The position numbers and the translations under genes are program-made. Positions 269-53,045 of a stretch of 64,000 nt of DNA are shown piece after piece. The notes beneath the pieces were generated by a model. The model saw only the letters and a program-made list of their open reading frames with translations. It did no database searches and had not been told where the DNA came from. This stretch comes from Ciceribacter lividus (lineage in GTDB: Bacteria > Pseudomonadota > Alphaproteobacteria > Rhizobiales > Rhizobiaceae). The DNA lies in assembly GCF_003337715.1 (NCBI RefSeq), contig NZ_QPIX01000007.1:186001-250000 (forward strand). The letters run 5' to 3'. Numbering within the stretch: the stretch's first letter is position 1; every line of letters begins with the position of its first letter.

Positions 269-3200
269 TCAAAGCCCGAGCCCCCGTCCTCTTCCGAGCC
301 CGTGATACAAGGCGAGTTCCCGTCCGAGGCTGCGGCCTGACCCGAAATCGCCGCTGATACCGAGCTCCCGCTTGCGGTTGGCGAGAATGGATTCAAGTTG
401 CGGGTCACGTTGAAGGCTGTTCGCCATGTCGCCCATCGCCGCGCGGCTCGCGCGATAGCCGGACATGTCGCCTTCCCTGTACTGGCGCTGGCTGGCGTGG
501 TCGAGCTTCTGCCAGCGTTCCACGAAGCGGTCGGCCCGGCGCTGCGGGTCGGTACGAATTTCAGTTTCGAGCTGGAGCGCGCGAATGGCGCGGTTGACCT
601 TGCCTGTCCCCGCTTCGCGGGCAAGGTCCGCGTCCTTGCCATAGGCGGCTTCGGCATCCTGCCAGCCGTGGGGTCGCACGGCATCGAAGCTCTTGCGGGC
701 GTCGTGCAGTTCCCGCACCTGCTCCGGGGTTAAGGCTTCGCCCTGTCCCTGTGCGGTGAGGATCGCGTCCACCGCGCGGGCATGACGCACAAGCGCCCGC
801 GTGCGGGCTCGGCGCAGGGCGTCCTCCGCGTCTCCCCCGGCCGGCCTCTCTGCCGATACCTCCCCTGCACTTCCTCTTTCCGGCTGCTTAGCGGCGGCGG
901 CGCCGGGCACGGCGTCGGCGGGCGAGCGCAGACCGTCCAGCAGATTGTCGACGGCATCGCGTAGCCGTTTCGGGACAAGCCCGTGGATGATCTCGGCGAC
1001 GCGGGCGCGGAAGATGATGCCGCGCCGCTCGGCGTAGTCCCGGGCCGGATCGATCTGATCGTAATCGGACGCCATGTCCTTGGCGCGGTCGCGCGACAGG
1101 GCACGGAGAAGCCGGTCCTGACTGGAGAAATCGTCGCGGCCGTAATGCAGGTCCATTCCGTCACGGTGACGCGACAGGGCGACATAGCTCGAATGGGCAT
1201 CCATTCCCGGTGTCGCCAGCACATGGGTGCGATCCACGGTCATGCCCTGCGCCTTGTGGATGGTCGCCGCATAGCCGTGGTCGATGCGGTCGTAGTCCTT
1301 CAAGTCGAAGGAGACAGTGCGCCCGTCATCGGTGCGGACGCTCATGGCTATCTCGCTGACCTGTTCGATGCTGCCGAGCGTGCCGTTCTTCACGCCAAGC
1401 CCGCGTTCGTTCTGCAGGAACATGACACGATCCCCGGCGGCAAAGGAACGGTCGTTCCGCTGTCCGTCACTCCGCCCGACCGTAACACGTACATCCTCGC
1501 CGAGATCGCCGGCTTCCCGCATCCGCTCCCGCGCTGCCTCGTTGAGTTCCCGCACCTCCGCATTGGTATGGGTGAGGATGATACGGCTCTGGTCCGGCTC
1601 TGCCAGCCGTTCGCGATCCCAGCGGTCTATCAGTTCGTCACGAGCCTGCTCACGCGTCTGCACCTCATGTACCATGCCGTGGCGCTCATAGGCGTGGATC
1701 GCTTCACCGGTCCTGCCGGTTGCCAGATCGCGGGTGGCGTCGCGTTGCCAGTCCTCGTGCTGGCGGCGCACCTCGCCGATTTCCACGCCGCCATGGTGTT
1801 CGTGGATCGACCGGAAGGCGGCACCCGCCTCGATCGCCTGCAATTGCTGCGGATCGCCGACCAGCACCACCTTTGCGCCAGCTTCCGCGGCATGGGAGAG
1901 CACGCGCTCCAACTGGCGCGTGCCGACCATGCCCGCCTCGTCGATGACCAGAATTTGCCGGGACGTGAGCATGTCGCGGCCCTGTCCCCAGCCGTGTTCC
2001 ATGCTGGCGATGGTGCGCGAGGAAATACCCGATCCGCTTTCCAGGTTCTCCGCCGCGATCCCGGACAGGGCGGCACCGCGAACCTCGTAGCCCGCCGCCT
2101 CCCATGCCTCGCGGGCAACTCCGAGCATGGCGCTCTTTCCCGTTCCGGCATAGCCGACGACGATGCCAAGATCGCGTCCGTCCGTGACATGCGCCAGCCC
2201 ATCCGCCTGCTCGCAGGACAGGACAAGGCCATGCTGTCCGGCGCGATGCAAGGCGGCGTCCCGGTCCCTGTCCTCCACACCGTGCCGTGCGCGCTCCGCC
2301 ATCATCTCCGCTGCGCGGTGCAGGCGCTGTTCCGTCTCGATCATGTCGACGGTGGTGAAACGGTCGTTGCCGGAAGAATCCTTTCCCAATTCGACCAGAT
2401 CGGGCGCATTGCCCATTGCCGCCATGACCCTGTTGAACTGCTCGATGCCGTCGCTATGGCGGTGCGCGAACCTCGCCATGTCCCGGCGCGTGAACGTCGA
2501 TTGCTGGTGGGTGATCGCGTCGAGGGCGATGGAAGGATCGGCGATGATGCGCGCGCCATTGTTGCGGGCGATCACCCGGTGCAGTTCGGCCCGATCCGCA
2601 ACGGTGTCGATGACAGTGTCGTTGACACTGGCGGCGGCGTCTCGCCCCTCCCCCTCGATGCGCTGTGCCGGTGCGCCGATCTGTGTTTGCGGCTCCAGGT
2701 CGATGCCCTGTGCTTCAAGGCTGCGGTGGTCGATCCGGGCGTCGATGTCGAGTTCGGCAAGCCGCTCGTTGGCAAGATCCGCCCAGCGTTCGCGCCAGCG
2801 CTCGACCATCTCCGTGCGGTTCCAGTCGCGCACCTTTGGCCCGAAACCGCTCTCGTCCACGGAACGCATCGTCAGCATCACATGCGCGTGGGGCTTGGGG
2901 CTTCCGTCCTCGCCGAAATCCCAATGCACATTGAGGTCAGCGATCATGCCCTGATCGACGAATTCGGATTGCACAAAGTCGCGGGCGAGCTCGATGCCCT
3001 GCGCCCGCGACAGTTCCCGCGGAATGGCGAACTCCACCTCGCGGGCAAGCTGCGCATCCTTGCGCGCTTCGAACGCCTCGACATCGTTCCACAGCCGCTC
3101 GCGGTCACTCCAGTGTTCGGGCGCGTTCTCCGGCAACAGCACTTCGGAATGGACGACGCCGCGCTTGCCGGAGAAATCATGGGCACGGTCGAGGCGCTCG

Positions 3201-3298
3201 TCGTGCAGCCGTAGCCCCGAGCGGTAGGCGGCAGACGCCACCGCGCTGGAGCCGGCCTTGCGGGAAATGACCTTGACGTGAAGATGATAGATCGCCAT
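269..3298 (-). CDS. traA: Ti-type conjugative relaxase-helicase TraA
   Basis: The 1009-residue protein nicks oriT and unwinds the transferred strand during conjugation. The N-terminal MOBQ/MobA-type relaxase domain (about 1-230) has a candidate nucleophile Tyr25 in ASAAYRSG and the metal-binding PHAHVML motif with His137 and His139. A TraI/RecD-like helicase follows, with Walker A GYAGTGKSAML and Walker B ILVIDEAGMVG. The length is slightly below the roughly 1100 residues of Ti-plasmid TraA. It starts 30 bases from the oriT-like hairpin and is divergent from traC, the Ti arrangement. The partners traF, traB and traH do not follow: coding density on this strand ends at 269, facing a gene remnant. 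It therefore belongs to a mobile element that may be incomplete here. Confidence 0.93.
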   Translation of the reverse strand: MAIYHLHVKVISRKAGSSAVASAAYRSGLRLHDERLDRAHDFSGKRGVVHSEVLLPENAPEHWSDRERLWNDVEAFEARKDAQLAREVEFAIPRELSRAQGIELARDFVQSEFVDQGMIADLNVHWDFGEDGSPKPHAHVMLTMRSVDESGFGPKVRDWNRTEMVERWRERWADLANERLAELDIDARIDHRSLEAQGIDLEPQTQIGAPAQRIEGEGRDAAASVNDTVIDTVADRAELHRVIARNNGARIIADPSIALDAITHQQSTFTRRDMARFAHRHSDGIEQFNRVMAAMGNAPDLVELGKDSSGNDRFTTVDMIETEQRLHRAAEMMAERARHGVEDRDRDAALHRAGQHGLVLSCEQADGLAHVTDGRDLGIVVGYAGTGKSAMLGVAREAWEAAGYEVRGAALSGIAAENLESGSGISSRTIASMEHGWGQGRDMLTSRQILVIDEAGMVGTRQLERVLSHAAEAGAKVVLVGDPQQLQAIEAGAAFRSIHEHHGGVEIGEVRRQHEDWQRDATRDLATGRTGEAIHAYERHGMVHEVQTREQARDELIDRWDRERLAEPDQSRIILTHTNAEVRELNEAARERMREAGDLGEDVRVTVGRSDGQRNDRSFAAGDRVMFLQNERGLGVKNGTLGSIEQVSEIAMSVRTDDGRTVSFDLKDYDRIDHGYAATIHKAQGMTVDRTHVLATPGMDAHSSYVALSRHRDGMDLHYGRDDFSSQDRLLRALSRDRAKDMASDYDQIDPARDYAERRGIIFRARVAEIIHGLVPKRLRDAVDNLLDGLRSPADAVPGAAAAKQPERGSAGEVSAERPAGGDAEDALRRARTRALVRHARAVDAILTAQGQGEALTPEQVRELHDARKSFDAVRPHGWQDAEAAYGKDADLAREAGTGKVNRAIRALQLETEIRTDPQRRADRFVERWQKLDHASQRQYREGDMSGYRASRAAMGDMANSLQRDPQLESILANRKRELGISGDFGSGRSLGRELALYHGLGRGRGLGL

Positions 3299-3328
3299 CG
3301 CGATCTGAACATAGCCACGGAAAAGCGC

Positions 3329-3360
3329 ACGTCGGAACGACGTATAAGCGCGCCCTCCCT
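3329..3360. other. Putative origin of transfer (oriT) with hairpin and nic core
   Basis: Between the divergent traA and traC lies a perfect inverted repeat ACGTCG-GAA-CGACGT (3329-3343), followed at once by TATAAGCGCGCCCTCCC (3343-3359). The hairpin plus TAAG...GCGCCCT arrangement resembles the nic region of RSF1010/Ti-type (MOBQ) origins, and TraA is the matching relaxase class. The position between traA and traC is where Ti plasmids carry oriT. The exact nick base cannot be assigned by reading. Confidence 0.7.
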
Positions 3361-3479
3361 CGAAAAAATCTCGGGATGGACCAAGCCGTGCCAGCCCGTC
3401 CCGGTAACATGGAAGCCTTCCGCGAGGTGCTCAACTATCATCGCGACATCGACAATGAACGATGACGATGGAGGCGACA

Positions 3480-3806
3480 TTGCGCAAGCCACGGGACTTC
3501 GATGCGGAGCTGAAGGCGCTGGAAGACAAGGCGAAAGACCTCAAAGCACGCAAGGTGCAGCAGCTTGGCGAACTGGTGATCGCGACCGGGGCCGATACGC
3601 TCAACCCCGAGGAACTGGTTGGCGCGCTGGTCGCCATCGCAGAGACGAAGGACGCGGTAAAACGGGAGGCTTGGGCACGGCGCGGCTCGGCGTGGTTTCG
3701 GAGCAAATCACGGCGACCTGCTCCGGCAACTGATCGCGACAACAGCGGCACTCAGACGCAACCGGGTGGCGCGCAACCGCCGTCAGGCACAGAAGGCGCG
3801 GCATGA
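3480..3806 (+). CDS. traC: Conjugal transfer protein TraC
   Basis: The 108-residue protein resembles TraC of the Ti-type transfer system, an accessory DNA-processing protein acting with TraA and TraD at oriT. The pattern RKPRDFDAELKALEDKAKDL followed by LGELVIATGADTL is typical of the family. I chose the TTG start at 3480 because GGAGG at 3470-3474 lies 5 bases upstream and the protein then begins MRKPRD. In-frame ATGs at 3462 and 3468 exist but lack a ribosome site. The C-terminal 30 residues are Pro/Gly/Thr-rich and probably disordered. It ends 1 base before the traD ATG. Confidence 0.8.
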   Translation: MRKPRDFDAELKALEDKAKDLKARKVQQLGELVIATGADTLNPEELVGALVAIAETKDAVKREAWARRGSAWFRSKSRRPAPATDRDNSGTQTQPGGAQPPSGTEGAA

Positions 3807-3807
3807 C

Positions 3808-4074
3808 ATGCGCACCTGGCAGGTCGAGCGCCGCAAGCGTACACGGCACCTAATCGAACTCGGCGGTCTCGTCGTCAAGGCGGGCATCGTGGACCTGACG
3901 AACGACGACCGCACCGTCATTCTCGGCGCGCTCATCTGGATGACCGAAAAGCTCCAAAGCGATCAGGGTGAAAAGGCACGCTCGCTATGGGTCGAGAAAG
4001 GAAAGCAGGCGTTCGCGGAGGAGCGAGCACAAGACGCGACCATCCAACCGCAGGACACGACCGTCAGCCAGTGA
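3808..4074 (+). CDS. traD: Conjugal transfer protein TraD
   Basis: This is an 88-residue basic protein of the small TraD family, recognised by the core RRKRTRHLIELGGLVVKAGI. In Ti-type systems it is encoded between traC and traG and helps form the relaxosome. The ATG at 3808 follows the traC stop by one base. An in-frame GTG at 3766 would add a basic 14-residue extension overlapping traC. The coupling protein gene traG, which normally comes next, is absent: a 330-base gap and an unrelated, lower-GC peptide cluster follow. The transfer module is therefore truncated or interrupted here. Confidence 0.78.
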   Translation: MRTWQVERRKRTRHLIELGGLVVKAGIVDLTNDDRTVILGALIWMTEKLQSDQGEKARSLWVEKGKQAFAEERAQDATIQPQDTTVSQ

Positions 4075-4406
4075 CGATGAGCTGTGGCGCACCGTTGCTG
4101 ACCTCGACCTCGATCGATCCGAACCAGCATACCGGAGAGCCATGCCTTTCCGGTAAGTGCATTTACGCTTGGTGGCGACTGGCACTCGCCCTGAGCCAGA
4201 GAAAGCGACATTTTTCGCATGAGTTAACAGCGGGTTACGTTATGTACACGCAAAACGTGCGATCAAGCTTGATGAACGTCAAAGTTATGCCACATACCTG
4301 CACGAGCGTTTTGTGGCGGGCATACGCCTGTGGTTGCGCAACGAAGCGTAGTCTAATGACATCCATGCTCATGGATGTTCTCTGAAAAACCAAGAAGGAA
4401 CGAAAA
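4075..4406 (+). promoter_or_regulatory. Leader and promoter region of the peptide cluster
   Basis: This 332-base gap has no convincing gene. It contains an inverted repeat TACCGGA/TCCGGTA (4130-4136 and 4149-4155), possibly a weak terminator for traCD. There is also a 12-base palindrome ATCAAGCTTGAT (4262-4273) and a second inverted repeat listed separately. Composition changes from GC-rich before about 4200 to mixed afterwards. A promoter for the downstream operon must lie here, but no clear -35/-10 pair could be fixed. A short open stretch ending ...DLDRSEPAYRRAMPFR at 4156 may be a decayed gene end. Confidence 0.5.
4359..4378. promoter_or_regulatory. Perfect inverted repeat just before the precursor gene
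   Basis: ACATCCATG-CT-CATGGATGT is a perfect 9-base inverted repeat with a 2-base centre. It ends 13 bases before the AGAAGGA ribosome site (4392-4398) of the precursor peptide gene. The tiny centre fits a protein-binding operator better than an RNA hairpin. No regulator gene is visible in the cluster, so the binding protein is unknown. Confidence 0.55.
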
Positions 4407-4577
4407 ATGTCCGATGTCCAGTTGAAAGAGCCTCCCATCCAAACCGAACAGAAGAAGCTCTCGCCCCAGGTTGACAAGGCATTTCTGGATGCCTTGAAGG
4501 AAATCTCCGGCGACAGGGACGACTATACCGGCTTTGACGCCGGCCCGCGTCGCGACATCGGTCCTCGGACCGTCTGA
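4407..4577 (+). CDS. Putative RiPP precursor peptide, 56 residues
   Basis: A small gene with ribosome site AGAAGGA 8 bases upstream and a stop 17 bases before the next gene. The first 35 residues are charged with a predicted helix (VDKAFLDALKEIS), like a leader peptide. The remainder, DDYTGFDAGPRRDIGPRTV, has two GPR motifs, three Arg, a Tyr, a Phe and several Asp, and resembles a core. There is no Cys, so it is not a lanthipeptide or other thioether substrate. It is followed without a break by oxygenases, an ABC exporter and an arginase-like enzyme, which is the main support for its role. The leader/core boundary is not marked by a double-Gly site; a cut near Gly35-Asp36 is one option. No known family is recognised. 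Confidence 0.75.
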   Translation: MSDVQLKEPPIQTEQKKLSPQVDKAFLDALKEISGDRDDYTGFDAGPRRDIGPRTV

Positions 4578-4594
4578 TCGGAAGGAGAGCGGGA

Positions 4595-5752
4595 ATGTGG
4601 AGGGAATTGTACCAAGATTCTCACGAGTTTCTCGGCCCTCATTTGGTTCGAGGCCTCGACGCGTTTCCGCTCTCCTTTGAGCATATCGCCGATGCTTTAT
4701 ATGGAGCGAGGACCGACACTGGTCCTTCGAAACTCAATTACTTCCGGGGCTACGTCGGCGGTCGAGAAGACTATAGCGTCGCGGAGAAATTCCTACGTTA
4801 CGACCTTGCATACAACACTATTGAGCGATCGATCGCCGACGCCTTCGGTGGAGAGAGGCCTGAGCTTGGTGAAAGCGCCGGTCTCATCATTAATGGTTCT
4901 CTCCAATGGTCAGATCGGCTTCAAGAAGTAAGCAGCGGACACGCTCATCAAATCGCTAGGATCTATAGCGGTCAGCAGATCACTTATGATGTGACGCTCT
5001 TTATTGGTGCATACGGATCTACACCATTCGGCGTCCACATCGACGACGCAAGCCATCGCACAATCCTCTTCAATTTGGGACCCGGCGACAAGGGAATGGC
5101 CATCTGGCGCAACCAGGACATCCTGGAACAATTTGGCAAAGTTCGGAACATCATAGACCCGACCTCAATTGAAGCGGCACCGGAACAATTCTTCTTCAAA
5201 ACGGGTGAGGCGTTCGTTCTACCCTCGGAACGATATCATGTGGGCCTGAATAATACTTTATCGACCACCGCCGCCATCGTCGTAGATATTGTTAGTGACG
5301 GGAAAGCTGTTGCGAGAGAAGCGCAGAGCCTTGGCGCTTCTTTCGATGCAATGCCTGAATCCAAGAAAGCCGACCTGAGGCTCATTACTCTTGAGGACCT
5401 TTCACGTCTCAGTGGGCTGCGAAATTCGTCTAACAACTTTCTCCGATACTCGCGTGCACGAAGACCGTTTGATATGTCCGGCGTCTCCAAAGGGACAATC
5501 CTGAGACGATCCAAACTGGCTGGTGTCGAAGTGGTTCCGCTAAGGCAGAACTCCATCATCTATTCTCGCGGTTATCACCATATTTTCGAAGGGGTTCTGG
5601 TCCCCACATCCTTCAGCTCACTTCTGCAGGCCAACACATTGAACGTTGGTTGCTTCCTCGCGGCCTTACCCGGGGGGGAGGAGGTAATCAGTGCAAAGCT
5701 CCTACTACTAAAGTTTCTCATTGAGACGGGCACTTTGGAGGCATCCCAATGA
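4595..5752 (+). CDS. Cupin/JmjC-like oxygenase A of the peptide cluster
   Basis: The 385-residue protein has a double-stranded beta-helix core with an iron-binding set H148-x-D150 (FGVHIDDA) and H215 (SERYHVG), plus a possible cosubstrate-binding region FNLGPGDKG. This pattern is that of Fe(II)/2-oxoglutarate cupin hydroxylases of the JmjC/ribosomal-oxygenase type. It is paralogous to the next gene, sharing FGVHIDDA(S/T) and NLGP. The C-terminal 100 residues end in a helix-rich LLLKFLIETGTLEA, like a winged-helix peptide-binding domain. The ATG has GGAGAG 7 bases upstream. It probably hydroxylates the precursor peptide; the target residue is unknown. Base composition is lower in GC than the housekeeping genes. 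Confidence 0.72.
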   Translation: MWRELYQDSHEFLGPHLVRGLDAFPLSFEHIADALYGARTDTGPSKLNYFRGYVGGREDYSVAEKFLRYDLAYNTIERSIADAFGGERPELGESAGLIINGSLQWSDRLQEVSSGHAHQIARIYSGQQITYDVTLFIGAYGSTPFGVHIDDASHRTILFNLGPGDKGMAIWRNQDILEQFGKVRNIIDPTSIEAAPEQFFFKTGEAFVLPSERYHVGLNNTLSTTAAIVVDIVSDGKAVAREAQSLGASFDAMPESKKADLRLITLEDLSRLSGLRNSSNNFLRYSRARRPFDMSGVSKGTILRRSKLAGVEVVPLRQNSIIYSRGYHHIFEGVLVPTSFSSLLQANTLNVGCFLAALPGGEEVISAKLLLLKFLIETGTLEASQ

Positions 5753-6954
5753 CAACGCTATTTGATCAGTTTTACGACGCCACCGGGCGATTCCGCCGAC
5801 CGTATGGCGAGAAGGTCGTAAGCCACCCCTACACTGAAGCCATGGTGAAGGAATGCCTCGATAGGCTCGCCAACGAGCCCAATTCAAAGATTAGTAAAAG
5901 ATGCCGAATATATCGGAATGGACGTCAACTGGGACCGTTTGAGGCAAAGGAATTCATCGTCGACGTCAGTCGCTTTCCGACTTTGGCCAGCGTCGCATGG
6001 GAAGAAATCACGGCCGGCGAACCTTTCTTGATCTTCGTTAATTTTGCTGCACTCCTCTCGCATGAACTCGGCGAGGCGTCGAGACGGTTCATCGGCGATT
6101 TCGGTCAACGGTTTGAGCCAGACGGGATTTCGATCGAGCACCATCTGATTATCGGCAAATATGACGAGACAGCGTTCGGCGTGCATATTGACGATGCAAC
6201 GGACCGGGTATTCCACTTCAATCTCGGCCCAAGCGCAAAAGAGATGATTTTGTGGCCACGCGAGGACTATCTCGCATCTTACAACGGAGACGTGGCGCGG
6301 CCACTAAAATCGGTCTCGATGAACGGATCGCAGACCTACCCGATGCCGGTTGGCGGATGCTTCTTTCTTCCTGCGGATTACTATCACGTCGGACGGAGCC
6401 CGCACGGTGTCAGCATCGTGGTCTCATTGGCTTTGACGCGAAACAGCTGCAAACACCAGCTGGCGTCCGCCGTTGGCGCACTGGATCTCTTTACTCATGT
6501 AGATGAGTCAGCCGACGACTATTACAGAGATTTTAGCAGCAGGCCCAACCCGGACGCGGTCGCGAACGTGTGGGTAAAGGCTGAGGAAATCGGTTTCGCA
6601 AATCTGCTTGAGCACGCGCGGGCCCGCAATCGCAGCAACAACTATCTTATTGAAATCTCGCCGATTAACGCCTCTCCCCTTCCCGATGAAGCAGCTTGGT
6701 TTGAGATAAGAGACCCATCGAACCTGCAAGTGATAGAGCACGATGGTAGTCTCAATGTGTATTCGAGAGGCCACTACGCGCTGCTATACAACACCGTAGA
6801 CATCAAGACATTTAGGGATGCCATTGAGGCCGGTAGGTTCGAGTACAGCATGCAGCATTTTCAGAATGCCCGCAGGCGAGGCGACCGAGGCACAGCGCTG
6901 CTAGGCTGGGTAATCGCAACCAAGGGAGCGGTGCGCTCGGGCGCGCCCGAATAA
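5749..6954 (+). CDS. Cupin/JmjC-like oxygenase B of the peptide cluster
   Basis: The 401-residue paralogue of the preceding gene overlaps it by an ATGA junction with GGAGG upstream. The iron site is H146-x-D148 (FGVHIDDA) and H213 (DYYHVG), with FHFNLGPSAKEM following the first pair. The N-terminal part diverges from oxygenase A while the metal core is clearly shared, so the pair probably arose by duplication and acts on different residues or forms a heterodimer. The C-terminal section (about 270-400) could be a peptide-binding domain. Function as a peptide hydroxylase is inferred from fold signature and context. An amino-acid hydroxylase acting on free substrates is the alternative. Confidence 0.7.
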   Translation: MTTLFDQFYDATGRFRRPYGEKVVSHPYTEAMVKECLDRLANEPNSKISKRCRIYRNGRQLGPFEAKEFIVDVSRFPTLASVAWEEITAGEPFLIFVNFAALLSHELGEASRRFIGDFGQRFEPDGISIEHHLIIGKYDETAFGVHIDDATDRVFHFNLGPSAKEMILWPREDYLASYNGDVARPLKSVSMNGSQTYPMPVGGCFFLPADYYHVGRSPHGVSIVVSLALTRNSCKHQLASAVGALDLFTHVDESADDYYRDFSSRPNPDAVANVWVKAEEIGFANLLEHARARNRSNNYLIEISPINASPLPDEAAWFEIRDPSNLQVIEHDGSLNVYSRGHYALLYNTVDIKTFRDAIEAGRFEYSMQHFQNARRRGDRGTALLGWVIATKGAVRSGAPE

Positions 6955-6955
6955 T

Positions 6956-7702
6956 ATGGCCAAGGTAGACTTTGACGACACGAGACCTGCCTGCCTCAGT
7001 CTTCCAATCTGTGACATGCTGCCTTACCGCAGCGCATCGGACTTCTTTTGCGAGTTTGGCGATGCCCATGTCGACGTGACTGACGGCAGAGGCTGCACTG
7101 TCAGACGATCGCAACTCTACGCGTTGGCGACATGGTGGCAAAACCGGTCTGCCGCGCCAGCTGAAGAAGCACTGAGCGGCACCGTGGTTCACTGGCCGAT
7201 CCGCGAAGACGATAACCATTCCGCGCGCCTCCAAGGCGTCATCGATGACGTTACGAGATATATTGTCGATGGTCATGCTGATCGGTCATCCATTTTCGAT
7301 CTTTATGACTTTCCCCAAATTCCTCGTTTCGCGTGGGCAATCATCGGACCGAAGTCCGTGCCGGTGAATGCTCACCAGGACATGTTCGGTACTGCGAGCT
7401 GGAACCTCCTGTATTCCGGTCGCAAGGAGTGGTCTTTTTGGGCGCCTGATCTCCATGCGATTGGAGGTCACCCACCATTCACGACCTTTGAGCAATGCCC
7501 CGGCGAACTAGTCTGGATTCCGGAAAACTGGTGGCACAGCGTCCGCTATAGGGACGCGTCCATATGCTTTTCGAAGAACCTCATCCTGCGCCGTTCGGTG
7601 GATTCTGTGCTGCAGTCGATGAGATTGAAGGCACCACGCTATGCACACGTATTGGAAGCTGTTCTTTTGACCGAACAAAGGAGCAAAGTTGATGTTGCCT
7701 AG
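6956..7702 (+). CDS. JmjC-like cupin-8 hydroxylase of the peptide cluster
   Basis: The 248-residue protein has the clearest JmjC/cupin-8 signature in the cluster: H140-x-D142 (NAHQDMFG), the GRKEW segment with Lys157, and PGELVWIPENWWHSV with H194. This matches FIH/tRNA-yW-type hydroxylases that use Fe(II), oxygen and 2-oxoglutarate, often on Asp, Asn or Lys side chains. It starts one base after the stop of oxygenase B and overlaps the next gene by 11 bases. It lacks the extra C-terminal domain of oxygenases A and B. Its probable substrate is the Asp-rich precursor peptide. Confidence 0.75.
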   Translation: MAKVDFDDTRPACLSLPICDMLPYRSASDFFCEFGDAHVDVTDGRGCTVRRSQLYALATWWQNRSAAPAEEALSGTVVHWPIREDDNHSARLQGVIDDVTRYIVDGHADRSSIFDLYDFPQIPRFAWAIIGPKSVPVNAHQDMFGTASWNLLYSGRKEWSFWAPDLHAIGGHPPFTTFEQCPGELVWIPENWWHSVRYRDASICFSKNLILRRSVDSVLQSMRLKAPRYAHVLEAVLLTEQRSKVDVA

Positions 7703-8369
7703 TGCCGATAGCGTTCGAACCTCGCTCGATACGAGCGGCTTTGTCTCACGTGACGATTTCCTTCCCGATGACACCTTTCGCGCACTCAACGAGCTGGTTT
7801 TGCAGTCATGGAACGGCGGGAACGGTTGGCGTACGAGGGTCAAGGGGCCTGGGGGGGCAAGAGTGTTGCCGCTCCAACCACCGTCTAGAATCGCCAAAAT
7901 TCGCTCCCTGCTGGACGAGCACGCGAACAGTGCCAGTTCTGAATTCAGCTATCTGTATCACTCGCTTCATGAAGAAAATGACGAGTCTGGCCTTATCGGG
8001 AAAATCACGGCGGCCGTGATCGAAGGATGGAATCCGCTAATCAACGACTTGATTGGCGAATGGAGCCACACCAATTTTTCTCTAACCGCATACACGCCGT
8101 CTTGTTTTCTGGACTCGCACACGGATCACGATCCCGGCGTGTCACGGTACCAGATCACCCTGCTACTTTACTTCGGTGACGCAGGGAAAGAGACGCAGCA
8201 AGCCGGTCTGGTTTTCGACTATCTTGGAAAAAGGTCGATCATTCCGGCCAGTCCAAATCGGGCCGTAATGTTTGTTCCTTCGCCGGAAACAAACCATGGA
8301 ATTCCCCGTGCGGACGAAACCGTGGCGTCTGATTACGCCCGCCTCGCATTCTCAGGTTGGCTGATCTGA
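7692..8369 (+). CDS. Prolyl-4-hydroxylase-like Fe(II)/2OG oxygenase
   Basis: A 225-residue enzyme of the 2OG-Fe(II) oxygenase superfamily, a different subfamily from the three cupins before it. The iron ligands are H143-x-D145 (SHTDHD) and H202 (TNHGIP). Arg217 in YARLAFSGW is placed to bind the 2-oxoglutarate carboxylate. I chose the ATG at 7692 because AAAGGAG sits 7 bases upstream; a TTG one codon earlier is also open. The gene overlaps its predecessor by 11 bases and abuts the exporter gene. Two Pro-containing GPR motifs in the precursor make proline or arginine hydroxylation plausible, but this is inference. Confidence 0.75.
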   Translation: MLPSADSVRTSLDTSGFVSRDDFLPDDTFRALNELVLQSWNGGNGWRTRVKGPGGARVLPLQPPSRIAKIRSLLDEHANSASSEFSYLYHSLHEENDESGLIGKITAAVIEGWNPLINDLIGEWSHTNFSLTAYTPSCFLDSHTDHDPGVSRYQITLLLYFGDAGKETQQAGLVFDYLGKRSIIPASPNRAVMFVPSPETNHGIPRADETVASDYARLAFSGWLI

Positions 8370-10166
8370 ATGAAACATACTCATGTCGAGCTTGTTTGGA
8401 AGCTTAGCCTGCTTGCCCTTATCGGTCGCGAATTTTGGCTACCCTATTCAGTAACATTGTCGCTGGTGATCGCGTCGACGATCCTCTCGGCGCTTGCACC
8501 ATTGCTTTTCGGCAAGATTATCGACGGATTAACTCAGGGATATAATGGATCACAAGCGGATGTGCTTCTGCTAGTCATTGTATATCTATTGATCCAGCTC
8601 GCGTCATCCGGATTGAAGGCGATTTCAAACTACGTAGCAGCTTCTCGTAGCGAGACTATCTCACATTATCTTCGGACGAGTCTAACTGAGAGGATTTTCC
8701 ACAGAGGAGCCAATCACTCGGCGATCCTAAACGAAGATCGCGGCAAAACGTTATCATTGTTTAGCCGGGACATAGAATCCCTGTGGGATCTATTTGGATT
8801 TGCCATCCTTGATATCATCGCGTCATCTATCATGATCTTTACTCTATGTATCGTCGTATTCTCTATAAACGACGTCTTGGGCATTATCATCATCGCGATC
8901 TCCGCGGTGTTTTCAATTGCCTTCTATTTGAACGGGCACCGGGTCAGAACTTACTTTGCTGCGGCCTCGCCCAAATTTGATCGTATGATCGGCTTCATCA
9001 ACTCGGCCCTTAGCGGCTATGAAACCATCGTGTCCTTCCGCGCCCAGCGGTGGGCGAACGAGCTAATCACTCGGAAAAGCCGGGATGTCACCGAGCTTGC
9101 GAATAGAGCGCACCTGAGATCGACGACCTTCACCTTCATCACGTCAACTGTAAACCTCTGCGGACTTCTTCTGGTTTGGCTATTGTGCCTGCCGTCGCTG
9201 CTCCAACAAGGTCCAGCCTATGTAGAAATTACGTTGGGGCAATTCCTTGCCGTGTTGGCGTATTTCGCGATGATCATGAGCCCCTTGGAGAACATAAGCG
9301 GATCGGCGAAGGCAATTACGAAGGGTATGGTGTCAATAGAACGTCTGTCCTCATTTCTGCGTCACTCTCATGAACCCAATGATCAACCGCAAACCTCTGG
9401 GCTGTCGGTCTCCCGAGCCAACTCTCCGGAGACGCCAGTCATCGAAGTATCGGGACTGGAGTGCGAGGGAGTGAGCGACGCCGCCACAAAGCCCATCCTC
9501 AACGGGCTGTCCTTCAGCGTTGCCCACGGTCAGATGATTGGTCTGGCCGGCGAATCCGGAAGTGGCAAATCGACGCTCTTACGGGCTTTGGGGAGATTAG
9601 CTGAACCGAGCGGCGGCGAGATATCCTATTTCGGAACCACTATCTGCTCGTTTCCAGAAGACGAGTTTCGGCAGAAAGTCACATATGTGCCTCAATCCGC
9701 CGCGCTATTCCCTGTGAATTTTAGACAGAACATTACCCTGGTCGAACGTGATGATCAAAACAGTGACGACCTGCGCGAGGCCGCGACGGCAGCATCCGCA
9801 GCCGCCTTCGTAGACAGATTCGACGATCATGTTGATATGGAGCGGTCTGGATTGTCAGGAGGCGAAGCCCAACGACTTTCACTCGCAAGAGCGTTCTTCC
9901 GGGAGTCTTCCATCCTGTTGGTCGATGAACCTACCAGTGCGTTGGACTTCACGAATAGCGTAGCGGTTGCTGATTCCTTGAGGGCAGCGGCCCGACGAGG
10001 GGCCGTCGTGGTGGCGTCGCACGACAAACATGTGCTCGAAAGATGCTCGTATGTGCTTCTACTTACAGATGGCGCGATCGCCGCGCGTGGAAGCCATTTT
10101 GATTTGGATGCGAAATCCAGTTTGTACCGTTCAATCATCTCGTCGCAAGGGGATAACCGTGTTTAA
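8370..10166 (+). CDS. ABC exporter (fused membrane and ATPase domains)
   Basis: The 598-residue half-transporter has about six membrane helices in residues 20-310 and a nucleotide-binding domain from about 355. Walker A is GESGSGKST (394-402), the signature is LSGGEAQRLSLARA, and Walker B is ILLVDEPTSAL. It starts directly after the preceding TGA. There is no N-terminal C39 peptidase domain, so leader removal, if it occurs, must use another protease. It most likely exports the modified peptide and may confer self-resistance. Codon use is AT-richer than the chromosomal ABC gene at 23874, consistent with horizontal origin. Confidence 0.9.
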   Translation: MKHTHVELVWKLSLLALIGREFWLPYSVTLSLVIASTILSALAPLLFGKIIDGLTQGYNGSQADVLLLVIVYLLIQLASSGLKAISNYVAASRSETISHYLRTSLTERIFHRGANHSAILNEDRGKTLSLFSRDIESLWDLFGFAILDIIASSIMIFTLCIVVFSINDVLGIIIIAISAVFSIAFYLNGHRVRTYFAAASPKFDRMIGFINSALSGYETIVSFRAQRWANELITRKSRDVTELANRAHLRSTTFTFITSTVNLCGLLLVWLLCLPSLLQQGPAYVEITLGQFLAVLAYFAMIMSPLENISGSAKAITKGMVSIERLSSFLRHSHEPNDQPQTSGLSVSRANSPETPVIEVSGLECEGVSDAATKPILNGLSFSVAHGQMIGLAGESGSGKSTLLRALGRLAEPSGGEISYFGTTICSFPEDEFRQKVTYVPQSAALFPVNFRQNITLVERDDQNSDDLREAATAASAAAFVDRFDDHVDMERSGLSGGEAQRLSLARAFFRESSILLVDEPTSALDFTNSVAVADSLRAAARRGAVVVASHDKHVLERCSYVLLLTDGAIAARGSHFDLDAKSSLYRSIISSQGDNRV

Positions 10167-11223
10167 GGTGCGGTTGGGTGCAGATATGGAGAGGCTATCC
10201 GCGGAAGAATTTAAGCTCGCTGGAAAGCCTTCCAAACCTCTTCCGGGCGTACTGAAACCTCTGGCTTTTCTCTCGCACGAGTGGTGCTCGATCAACGATC
10301 TGCGGCAGGCTGGAGTGTGCCCGGAAAGTGTCGAGGCGTTGATCAGAACGGGAGTGCTTTCCTTTGGAATCGGCCGAGAGACTTTTCCGCATGCAGCAAG
10401 AGCGTTTTACGAGACCCAGTTTCCAGTTCACGCTGCCGCATTCCCCTTGTTGAATTGGTTGGAAGGGCCGTTGCCGATCAATACAATCTGGATCGGGCTT
10501 CCGCTCTGCCATTTGACGAACATCCGACATTCGACAGCAACGGGGCTCGCGAGCGTGCTGGATGGATCGAACGGATCCATTATTCCTCTCCTAGGAATCT
10601 TCCCATTCATGAACCCGACCGAAAAGTGCCTTGAATACCTGCATCGGACTCACACCTTGGCCTGCGATGCAGGCAAGCGTCTGGGAGCGCTCGGCGGTGA
10701 TCACCGGGTCGCGTGGGCACTCTTGGAAGCGGTGCGCCGCTCGGCACCGGCCGATCTTCAGATGAGGTATATCCATATTGATGCGCACCATGACCTGTAT
10801 GGATCAATGGACAATGTCGGGGCCGGCAATGTCGCTCATTCTAACTTTCTGCTGAAGCTTCTCGCGAATGGTACTATCGACGAAGCGGTTTTGATAGGCT
10901 GCCGGGATGACCCGGTGCCGATCAACCAGATTTTGGAGCGAGGGTTTGGTGTGGCTTCTGTCGCTGACTATTCATCTGCCCCAAAAGCGACAAGGGCGAA
11001 GCACTACACCCATCTCTCGATAGACCTTGATATTATCGATCCATCTATCATTCCTGACGTATCCAGCCCTCTTGCGGGAGGTTGGTCCGTGCAAACGTTG
11101 AAGACGACTATTCGGGACATTTTGGTGAACGAGACCATAGATAGCGTCTCGCTTGTTGAACCTGGAATGAGCACAGCCTCGGCTGTGATAGCCAAAGACA
11201 TTCTGGAGGCTTTGAGTGGGTAG
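10159..11223 (+). CDS. Arginase-fold enzyme, putative peptide arginase
   Basis: The 354-residue enzyme of the ureohydrolase superfamily keeps all six manganese ligands: H182 in GGDH, D208, H210 and D212 in DAHHD, and D289 and D291 in SIDLDIIDP. Glu334 (VEPG) matches the arginase active-site Glu. About 130 residues precede the catalytic domain, including a small helical segment EALIRTGVLSFG resembling winged-helix peptide-binding domains. I chose GTG 10159, with AAGGGG 7 bases upstream; it overlaps the exporter stop by 8 bases. Peptide arginases such as OspR convert Arg to ornithine in RiPP precursors, and the precursor here carries three Arg in its C-terminal segment. A metabolic arginase is less likely given the extension and setting. 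Confidence 0.82.
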   Translation: MFKVRLGADMERLSAEEFKLAGKPSKPLPGVLKPLAFLSHEWCSINDLRQAGVCPESVEALIRTGVLSFGIGRETFPHAARAFYETQFPVHAAAFPLLNWLEGPLPINTIWIGLPLCHLTNIRHSTATGLASVLDGSNGSIIPLLGIFPFMNPTEKCLEYLHRTHTLACDAGKRLGALGGDHRVAWALLEAVRRSAPADLQMRYIHIDAHHDLYGSMDNVGAGNVAHSNFLLKLLANGTIDEAVLIGCRDDPVPINQILERGFGVASVADYSSAPKATRAKHYTHLSIDLDIIDPSIIPDVSSPLAGGWSVQTLKTTIRDILVNETIDSVSLVEPGMSTASAVIAKDILEALSG

Positions 11224-11773
11224 GAAAATGAAAAGAGATTACCGTGTGAAACGTGTACCAGAATACGAGATCGACGCGCCCACCGCGAAGCAGATTGTGG
11301 CACTGCTGGACGAAAATTTCCCCGACACCTTCGACGGTAGAACCTATTTTAAGCAACTACCGCACTTCCGTTATCTGGCGTTTGACGGCGAAACCGTCAT
11401 CGGCCAGGCAGGTGTTGATCACCGTGTTATTAGGGCGGGGGGAAAGATCATCAGGATCTTCGGGATTGTCGACCTATGCGTCACGCCGACGCATCGCGGC
11501 GTCGGTTTGGCCAGCAACCTTCTGAAGCAGATCGAAAATCTGGCGGCCGTGTCCAATGTCGACTTTCTTGTTTTGATGGGAGATGTTGACGCACTCTACA
11601 TCGCGAATGGCTTTCAACACGTGGGCTCGGCGATGACAAAGTGGCTAGCTGTGGAAGAAGTAGAAAGCTTCAGTCTGATCGAGCGAGATCTCTCGTATTG
11701 CTTCCTCGTCAAGCCGGTTCGTGGCGAAAGCTGGCCATTGGGTCCAATCGATATGCTGGGCTATCTCTTTTGA
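11216..11773 (+). CDS. GNAT-family N-acyltransferase of the peptide cluster
   Basis: The 185-residue GNAT protein has the acyl-CoA binding motif VTPTHRGVGLASNLL (Q/RxxGxG/A type) at about 99-113. I chose GTG 11216 because GGAGG lies 6 bases upstream and the start overlaps the arginase stop by 8 bases, the same geometry as the preceding junction. An ATG at 11228 is the alternative. The tail WPLGPIDML recalls the C-terminus of the Nod-factor acyltransferase NodA, though overall likeness was not tested. It may acylate the peptide, for example the new ornithine side chain or the N-terminus, or act as a self-protection enzyme. Confidence 0.75.
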   Translation: MGRKMKRDYRVKRVPEYEIDAPTAKQIVALLDENFPDTFDGRTYFKQLPHFRYLAFDGETVIGQAGVDHRVIRAGGKIIRIFGIVDLCVTPTHRGVGLASNLLKQIENLAAVSNVDFLVLMGDVDALYIANGFQHVGSAMTKWLAVEEVESFSLIERDLSYCFLVKPVRGESWPLGPIDMLGYLF

Positions 11774-51144: not shown

Positions 51145-51300
51145 GGTCATCGGCGACTGATCACGCCGTAGTCTGAAAGAGGCCCGTCCCCCGCCGCTTC
51201 AGACTTGGGCAAAGGCCTTATCCCCCTCTCCGGGCCTTTGTCCCAGCTTTTCGGCGAAGCCGCCGTGGCCCCTCCTCCAAGCCACGGCGGCTTTGCTTTT
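51145..51300 (+). ncRNA. Alpha-r7 (Smr7C)-like small RNA
   Basis: Four successive hairpins fill this gap. A short stem GGTCA/TGATC lies at 51145-51162, and GTCTGAA/TTCAGAC at 51171-51204. GGGCAAAGGCC pairs with GGCCTTTG(T)CCC at 51207-51244 with one bulge. The last is a 13-base-pair terminator stem at 51257-51293 followed by T-rich sequence. A -35-like CTTGAA lies at 51113-51118. About 150 bases of GC-rich hairpins next to polA match what I recall of the S. meliloti alpha-r7 (Smr7C) sRNA. That identity is from memory; the structure is seen directly. The start is approximate. Confidence 0.75.
51257..51300 (+). terminator. Intrinsic terminator of the sRNA
   Basis: GCCGCCGTGGC (51259-51269) pairs perfectly with GCCACGGCGGC (51281-51291). 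Two more A-T pairs extend the stem outside, and TTTGCTTTTG follows. Confidence 0.9.
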
Positions 51301-52800: not shown

Positions 52801-52809
52801 CCGAAAAGC

Positions 52810-52837
52810 AAAAGGCCGGGGACGACCCGACCTTTTC
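52810..52837 (+). terminator. Intrinsic terminator after the M20 peptidase gene
   Basis: AAAAGGCCGGG-GACGA-CCCGACCTTTT forms an 11-position stem with one mismatch and ends in a T-rich run (TTTTCTT), 9 bases after the stop codon. Confidence 0.85.
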
Positions 52838-53045
52838 TTCCATTTCACCGGTCCTGCCAGTACATCCGTGGTCAGGACCGGAAATGGGTGATGCCTCGCT
52901 TCTCGGCGCGTTCAACTTGCGCCGACCGACCTCATGACGACGATGCTGTCGCCTCAAGGTTAACATGAGGTTAATACGAGCGATCTTGAATGCTCGGCAC
53001 CGCCTAAGCTTTATTGATGTCACATCGATTGTTCTGGAAACTGCA

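Follow-up and report, generated by a model that had tools for sequence, protein, structure and literature searches.

A conserved gene cluster in Ciceribacter lividus encoding a small precursor peptide, ribosomal-oxygenase-like enzymes and an arginase: a probable source of a hydroxylated, ornithine-containing peptide

We analyzed a 64,000-nucleotide stretch of the Ciceribacter lividus genome (contig NZ_QPIX01000007.1, positions 186,001 to 250,000), hereafter the window, which carries a probable cluster for a ribosomally synthesized and post-translationally modified peptide (RiPP). Eight co-directional genes, running from a small peptide gene to a GNAT acetyltransferase gene, are tightly packed on the plus strand between positions 4407 and 11773 (Table 1), and the gaps between successive genes are 17, −4, 1, −11, 0, −8, and 4 bases. 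The original prediction had described this tight one-strand series of peptide, oxygenase, ATP-binding cassette (ABC) exporter, arginase, and GNAT genes, and our gene calls, Pfam matches, and HxD...H motifs agreed with it. All four oxygenases carry HxD and a distal His. A sequence resembling a ribosome-binding site, as judged by eye, lies 5′ of the peptide gene. For the GNAT gene, the ATG at 11228 was picked as the start to agree with the homologue in Notoacmeibacter marinus (L008), the mechanical open reading frame beginning at GTG 11216. Pfam gave no family for the peptide or for the products of cupA and cupB, and four of the cluster proteins had no match in PHROGs.

Table 1. Genes of the cluster in the window (2OG, 2-oxoglutarate; ROX, ribosomal oxygenase)
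Feature	Position	Strand	Description
Precursor peptide gene	4407..4577	+	56 aa; proposed leader residues 1-41, core 42-55 GFDAGPRRDIGPRT
cupA	4595..5752	+	ROX-like JmjC-fold 2OG/Fe(II) oxygenase with C-terminal winged-helix-like domain (predicted); Pfam-negative
cupB	5749..6954	+	cupA paralogue; conserved HID...YHV
JmjC-domain oxygenase	6956..7702	+	PF02373, E 1.7e-6; HQD...H
2OG-Fe(II) oxygenase	7692..8369	+	2OG-FeII_Oxy_3, PF13640, E 3e-6 (above cut-off); HTD...H
ABC exporter, fused membrane and ATPase domains	8370..10166	+	PF00664 (ABC_membrane) and PF00005 (ABC_tran)
Arginase-fold enzyme	10159..11223	+	PF00491, E 3.3e-21; GTG start
GNAT acetyltransferase	11228..11773	+	PF13527, E 8.2e-10

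The peptide was compared with its counterparts in N. marinus, the gammaproteobacterium Xenorhabdus anantnagensis (L009), and Rhizobium sp. 007 (L005). The C-terminal 14 residues, GFDAGPRRDIGPRT, were identical in all four. Across the six pairs, the core codons showed 0 nonsynonymous and 2 to 9 synonymous differences; the window and Xenorhabdus cores (14 codons) differ by 7 synonymous and 0 nonsynonymous changes, and the Notoacmeibacter and Xenorhabdus cores by 9 and 0. In contrast, the leader varies freely, with 35.2 nonsynonymous differences at 86.5 sites between the window and Xenorhabdus. Because the C-terminal 14 residues are invariant and differ only synonymously, while the leader is variable, we read the 56-residue peptide as a real precursor, of which GFDAGPRRDIGPRT is the core under purifying selection. 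NCBIfam gave no match for this precursor or for six others described below.

The complete set of eight genes was found in the same order in N. marinus, with 77-84% identity, and in X. anantnagensis, with 52-74% identity. Because the order is shared with two other species and the core is under purifying selection, the eight-gene cluster goes beyond chance. A peptide gene was present in the window and at all three other loci with a cupA orthologue of at least 64% identity (L005, where cupA is truncated, L008, and L009), so homologous clusters lacking the peptide, which would have told against the original prediction, were not seen. Its claim of a RiPP-type pathway with an arginase-fold enzyme and four oxygenases holds up to the extent that a conserved cluster and a selected core can speak for it. 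Two plasmids carry remnants. In Rhizobium sp. 007, the peptide gene is accompanied by a cupA gene broken by an IS5-type element (L005:12001-12627). In R. leguminosarum Vaf10 (L004:13941-16612), the arginase gene, the GNAT gene, and the C-terminal 33 residues of the ABC protein are left, standing behind a gene with integrase-core domains.

Among 397 genomes of the order, one, the window's own, had a cupA gene, and a class-wide search with the oxygenase profile gave one strong match in 289 genomes, again the window's own, together with two weak short matches (E 2.3e-5 and 6.8e-5). In the family of the Xenorhabdus genome, the profile matched 2 of 198 genomes, one being that of L009. The G+C content of the cluster is 53.3%, compared with 61.9% for window positions 12000-64000, where none of 90 equal-sized windows was as low; because of this low G+C content, the cluster was probably acquired horizontally. 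It adjoins a MobA/MobL relaxase-helicase gene on the minus strand and two TraD genes (window 269-4074), and these mobilisation genes are a likely transfer route. A RepC search gave one match, on a contig (C8) other than that of the window. Elsewhere in the window, Rfam identified small RNAs of alphaproteobacterial type, ar7 at 51148-51296 (+) and ar35 at 52805-52935 (−).

Next, the paralogous oxygenases were examined. The AlphaFold2 model of cupA scored a predicted local distance difference test (pLDDT) value of 90.1 and a predicted template modelling (pTM) value of 0.87, and its best PDB matches were the ribosomal oxygenases YcfD (Foldseek E 2.8e-13), NO66 (VIA Z 15.4, rmsd 6.5, 315 residues), and MINA53. 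YcfD and NO66 aligned over cupA 1-385, from the first to the last residue and including the winged-helix part, and identity to the three enzymes in the structural alignments was 10-16%. The alignment A4 profile gave no convincing match when the PDB was searched by sequence; the relatives came from the fold search. H148, D150, and H215 of cupA were invariant in 24 aligned rows. The protein is thus predicted to have the ROX fold, with a JmjC core, a further domain, a C-terminal winged helix, and the HxD...H triad. In the model, residues 300-385 form four strands followed by helices; a RiPP recognition element (RRE) is a β3-α3 winged helix. cupB is 21-22% identical to cupA, and the clades of the two came out as sisters in a 29-oxygenase tree, with support of 99/97 and subject to a long-branch warning. 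The ROX-type assignment by model covers cupA, and cupB was assigned as its paralogue from sequence. Going by the model, one at least of these paralogues is ribosomal-oxygenase-like, which the original prediction had overlooked. The PDB entry titles of YcfD, NO66, and MINA53 name arginyl or histidyl hydroxylases of ribosomal proteins. Such likeness of a predicted fold does not establish function, and for the substrate of cupA the genomic context argues for the peptide over a ribosomal protein.

The remaining enzymes were assigned as follows. The best solved relative of the JmjC protein was JMJD6 (E 4.2e-9). The 2OG-FeII_Oxy_3 superfamily, to which the fourth oxygenase was matched, includes prolyl hydroxylases. 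In the arginase, GGDH, DAHxD, HxN, DxD, and E334 were invariant in 11 of 11 aligned homologues; we take these to be the binuclear metal ligands and catalytic residues, and the protein reads as a PF00491 ureohydrolase with its catalytic residues intact. The OspR-type label given by the original prediction had to be dropped, since only PF00491 was matched and not PF12640; the motifs EEH(N/H)EAF and LDIDLDYFSC of PF12640 (PMC12703449) are absent, and the sequence reads GGDHRVA and SIDLDIIDPS. The Pfam match begins at profile position 64 and leaves the first ~150 residues outside. An RRE-like peptide-binding domain had been suspected from the sequence of this N-terminus, and the poor model did not support it; Pfam likewise found nothing in the N-terminal part of three arginases of the second branch described below. 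A genus-wide arginase search matched 63 of 63 genomes, and beyond the window gene the matches were E 1e-11 or weaker at ~30% identity; these are ordinary ureohydrolases with no bearing on the cluster. No peptidase family was among the Pfam matches of the ABC protein.

The oxygenases were then followed more widely. The scan of a genome collection (84,980 species) used one exact stretch, [GDS]xT[PA]FG[VI]H[ILK]D, so that relatives without it were missed, and yielded 74 stretches and 38 confirmed loci. The wider set comprises 41 oxygenase loci (L005-L045): 21 have a motif peptide, three have a decayed or frameshifted one (L007, L013, and L014), one has a candidate (L006), and 16 have none. In an alignment of 13 hand-chosen precursors, 12 fit x-P-x-(R/Q/N)-(D/H)-(I/V)-(G/R), and all 13, including the Pantoea candidate, keep the Pro. 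The motif was found at 27 of 14,647 frame ends, compared with a mean of 1.4 in 20 shuffles, a comparison limited by the fact that the pattern was written after the peptides had been seen and that many loci are near-copies. These 27 ends are 25 peptides beside an oxygenase, the frameshifted L007 copy, and one chance match in L011.

A second branch of six loci was recognized in Photorhabdus (L010, L011, L012, and L016), a Neisseriaceae bacterium (L015), and Sodalis (L017). Each of them combines a peptide gene with a pair of ROX-like genes and with genes for an ABC exporter and an arginase. Five (all but L017) also carry a JmjC gene, with phmmer E values of 5e-6 to 5e-4 to that of the window and Pfam backing for L010 and L015; L015 also has a 2OG-FeII_Oxy_3 gene. 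Five of the six peptides hold RP(V/I)RHIR, and that of L010 reads RPVRQIC. At L013 and L014, the second oxygenase, the exporter, and the arginase were not found, and the peptide arginines are partly lost. In Pantoea ananatis (L006), the arginase matches PF00491 (E 3e-43) and is accompanied by two cupin genes, and a weak match to the major facilitator superfamily (MFS) falls below the cut-off; the small peptide gene of this locus is divergent and a candidate precursor only.

Beyond the Pseudomonadota, the 11 Streptomyces genome loci all carry, upstream of the oxygenase, a 31-residue peptide ending in (G/S)PR(Q/R)DVGH. A Streptomyces plasmid copy (L007:9672-9857) is frameshifted relative to the other loci, with the FGPRQDVGH end kept in another frame. 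In Pontibacillus (L025:5922-6351), three tandem precursors ending in AAGPVNHVGH precede three ROX-like genes and the gene of an MFS transporter. No arginase was found in the Streptomyces or Pontibacillus stretches fetched. An RsgA-like GTPase gene, so named from the matches that L007 and L036 gave in NCBIfam and Pfam, follows in 10 of the 12 Streptomyces loci (L007 included), while L026 and L039 end at the MFS gene; in Pontibacillus, such a gene lies 3.3 kb upstream of the peptides. All eight genomes tested hold three RsgA places above 80 bits, so copies exist outside the cluster. Members are thus found in three phyla, Pseudomonadota, Actinomycetota, and Bacillota. An arginase is present at nine of the 41 loci, each with a motif peptide or the Pantoea candidate. 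Counted from the residue before the conserved Pro, the number of Arg is 2 to 5 at all nine arginase loci, 1-2 in Streptomyces, and 0 in Pontibacillus. From these comparisons, the window cluster appears as one arginase-bearing branch of a RiPP family that extends across phyla and does not always include this enzyme, and the wider family had been overlooked by the original prediction.

Two other gene arrangements were observed within the wider set. At L043:3598-9056, in a deltaproteobacterial metagenome-assembled genome, a ROX-like gene stands right after a pair of genes whose products contain B12-binding and radical SAM domains; this may be a further set for the tailoring of peptides or metabolites. 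In Photorhabdus (L018 and L020) and Paraburkholderia kirkii (L023), at ~7600-11700, a longer ROX-like oxygenase (633-697 residues) is followed by two genes of 305-333 residues; the peptide motif is missing from these loci, and the two following genes of L018 lack a Pfam family.

A conserved operon, a conserved core, and intact catalytic residues are established at the level of sequence, and from them we infer the chemistry of the cluster, the step order, the export, and the protection. We consider it probable that the locus is a RiPP cluster, with a leader-cleaved, hydroxylated, ornithine-containing, exported peptide as the likeliest product. The ribosome would make the 56-residue precursor, consisting of an N-terminal leader and a core of the last ~14 residues. 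The ROX-like pair would bind this peptide, probably aided by the C-terminal winged-helix domain, and hydroxylate the core, likeliest at Asp50, a position held by His in other branches, and/or at Arg. Further hydroxyls, for which Arg/Orn, Pro47, and Pro53 are candidates, would come from the JmjC and 2OG oxygenases, and the arginase would convert at least one of Arg48, Arg49, and Arg54 to ornithine. The ABC protein would then export the peptide, and a protease encoded elsewhere would cut the leader. This pairing of core residues with enzymes is guesswork. Some support for the peptide as substrate of the arginase comes from the Arg counts, because they tend to follow the presence of the arginase. 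Arg cannot be the sole target of the oxygenases, because the Pontibacillus cores without Arg accompany three ROX-like genes.

The GNAT gene, which is retained in L008, L009, and the remnant L004, may equally serve self-resistance or acylation; its product would acetylate the amine made by the arginase, either as self-protection or as tailoring. Odilorhabdin producers use a self-protecting acetyltransferase of this sort. The RsgA-like GTPase may also be a means of self-protection, and a table in PMC9290621 lists rsgA among protein-synthesis-associated genes used to predict which organisms make inhibitors of protein synthesis. It is conceivable, though rather doubtful, that ROX relatives were recruited across three phyla and that the oxidised peptides hit the small ribosomal subunit, with protection by an extra RsgA-like protein in Streptomyces and Pontibacillus and by N-acetylation of ornithine made by the arginase in the branch of the window; the proteobacterial loci, in which no RsgA-like match was found, weigh against this. 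A siderophore product built on hydroxyornithine and hydroxyaspartate was also considered and dropped, as the eight-gene set has no receptor or flavin hydroxylase.

Several observations weigh against a RiPP cluster of this kind. The oxygenase type alone does not mark a RiPP, judging from the 16 of 41 loci without a motif peptide. The Pontibacillus stretch is Arg-free, yet has three ROX-like genes, and the L010 core (ARPVRQIC) has lost an Arg and the His despite a complete-looking gene set. The Arg counts of loci with and without arginase overlap at 2 (L006 and L010 vs L033 and L041). No protease was found by Pfam among the eight proteins. Finally, the arginase model is poor (pLDDT 51.7, with residues 1-109 under 50), so that it supports no peptide-binding domain. 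With its N-terminal region lacking a usable model, and with small-molecule agmatinases and arginases as its nearest solved sequence relatives, the arginase, like the oxygenases, might act on something other than the peptide and yield a free guanidino-derived building block, and the small protein would be a carrier, regulator, or chaperone. We regard this as very unlikely: an invariant C-terminal stretch of 14 residues after a leader that changes freely is typical of a precursor and its core, the solved relatives of cupA act, by their entry titles, on ribosomal proteins, the number of core Arg tends to track the arginase, and Pfam found no peptide synthetase or ligase among the eight proteins.

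If the peptide is the substrate, the oxygenases could still crosslink it or alter its backbone instead of simply hydroxylating it, and so give a macrocyclic product. RiPP macrocyclisation by 2OG enzymes has been reported, as cited in PMC12710340. However, the solved ROX enzymes are named hydroxylases in their titles, nothing in the sequence here points to a crosslink, and we think such a product unlikely. The resemblance of the oxygenases to ribosomal-protein hydroxylases and the RsgA-like ribosomal GTPase of the Streptomyces loci would also fit a peptide that serves the physiology of its host, by ribosome regulation or in a toxin-antitoxin-like manner, and is not an exported metabolite. Against this stand the ABC transporter genes of the window, L008, L009, and the six second-branch loci, the MFS genes of the Streptomyces loci and L025 (with the weak match in L006), the patchy distribution of cupA within the order, and the low G+C content of the island; we regard this reading, too, as very unlikely. 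A RiPP cluster with an exported, hydroxylated, and ornithine-containing peptide is the reading that we prefer.

If this reading is true, it adds a RiPP family that is spread over three phyla, has ROX-like maturases and, in certain branches, employs a PF00491 arginase acting on the peptide. The core sequence is clear, testable, and of a size that allows complete reconstitution and synthesis, and a directly testable hypothesis on the target comes from the RsgA-like and GNAT genes linked to it. Further enzyme types with which to make peptides that are hydroxylated or carry ornithine would be useful tools, and the product of the cluster is worth isolating. The original prediction knew of no described class with this enzyme set; among the open-access literature matches listed, we likewise found no description of the enzyme set or of the precursor motif. 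The enzyme set of this probable RiPP family is defined and unusual.

Among known systems, the arginase of the window is proposed to share the reaction of the OspR-type (landornamide) arginases and differs from them in Pfam family, as OspR and PbsE are assigned to pfam12640 (PMC12703449). The same source describes KgrD, a pfam00491 arginase of the enteropeptin RiPP pathway, which is alike in family; unlike the situation here, KgrD needs a prior thiomorpholine, the cores are unrelated, and the cluster proteins include no radical SAM enzyme. Biphenomycin biosynthesis (bip/pbs) similarly combines an arginase converting Arg to Orn in a precursor with a JmjC/cupin-like Orn hydroxylase (PMC12707348, PMC12257519), the JmjC protein BipG γ-hydroxylating the ornithine made by the arginase (PMC12707348). 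However, as described there, that pathway uses a UPF0489/pfam12640 arginase, depends on an MNIO together with a B12 radical SAM enzyme, and has the precursor motif FHAFRF, whereas Pfam found no radical SAM or MNIO family among the eight proteins and the core is GFDAGPRRDIGPRT. Earlier work drew attention to fusions of an RRE with JmjC (PF08007) (PMC12710340) and to cupin-4 genes in the vicinity of NHLP precursors (PMC9426513); these cases resemble the cluster in placing JmjC_2/cupin-4 type proteins in RiPP-like contexts, and differ in that the relevant passages contain neither this precursor motif nor the combination with an arginase. With YcfD, NO66, and MINA53, cupA shares the predicted fold over its full length, the winged-helix part, and the HxD...H triad; unlike these enzymes, from which cupA is far removed in sequence, the cluster pair is encoded in tandem beside a small peptide gene.

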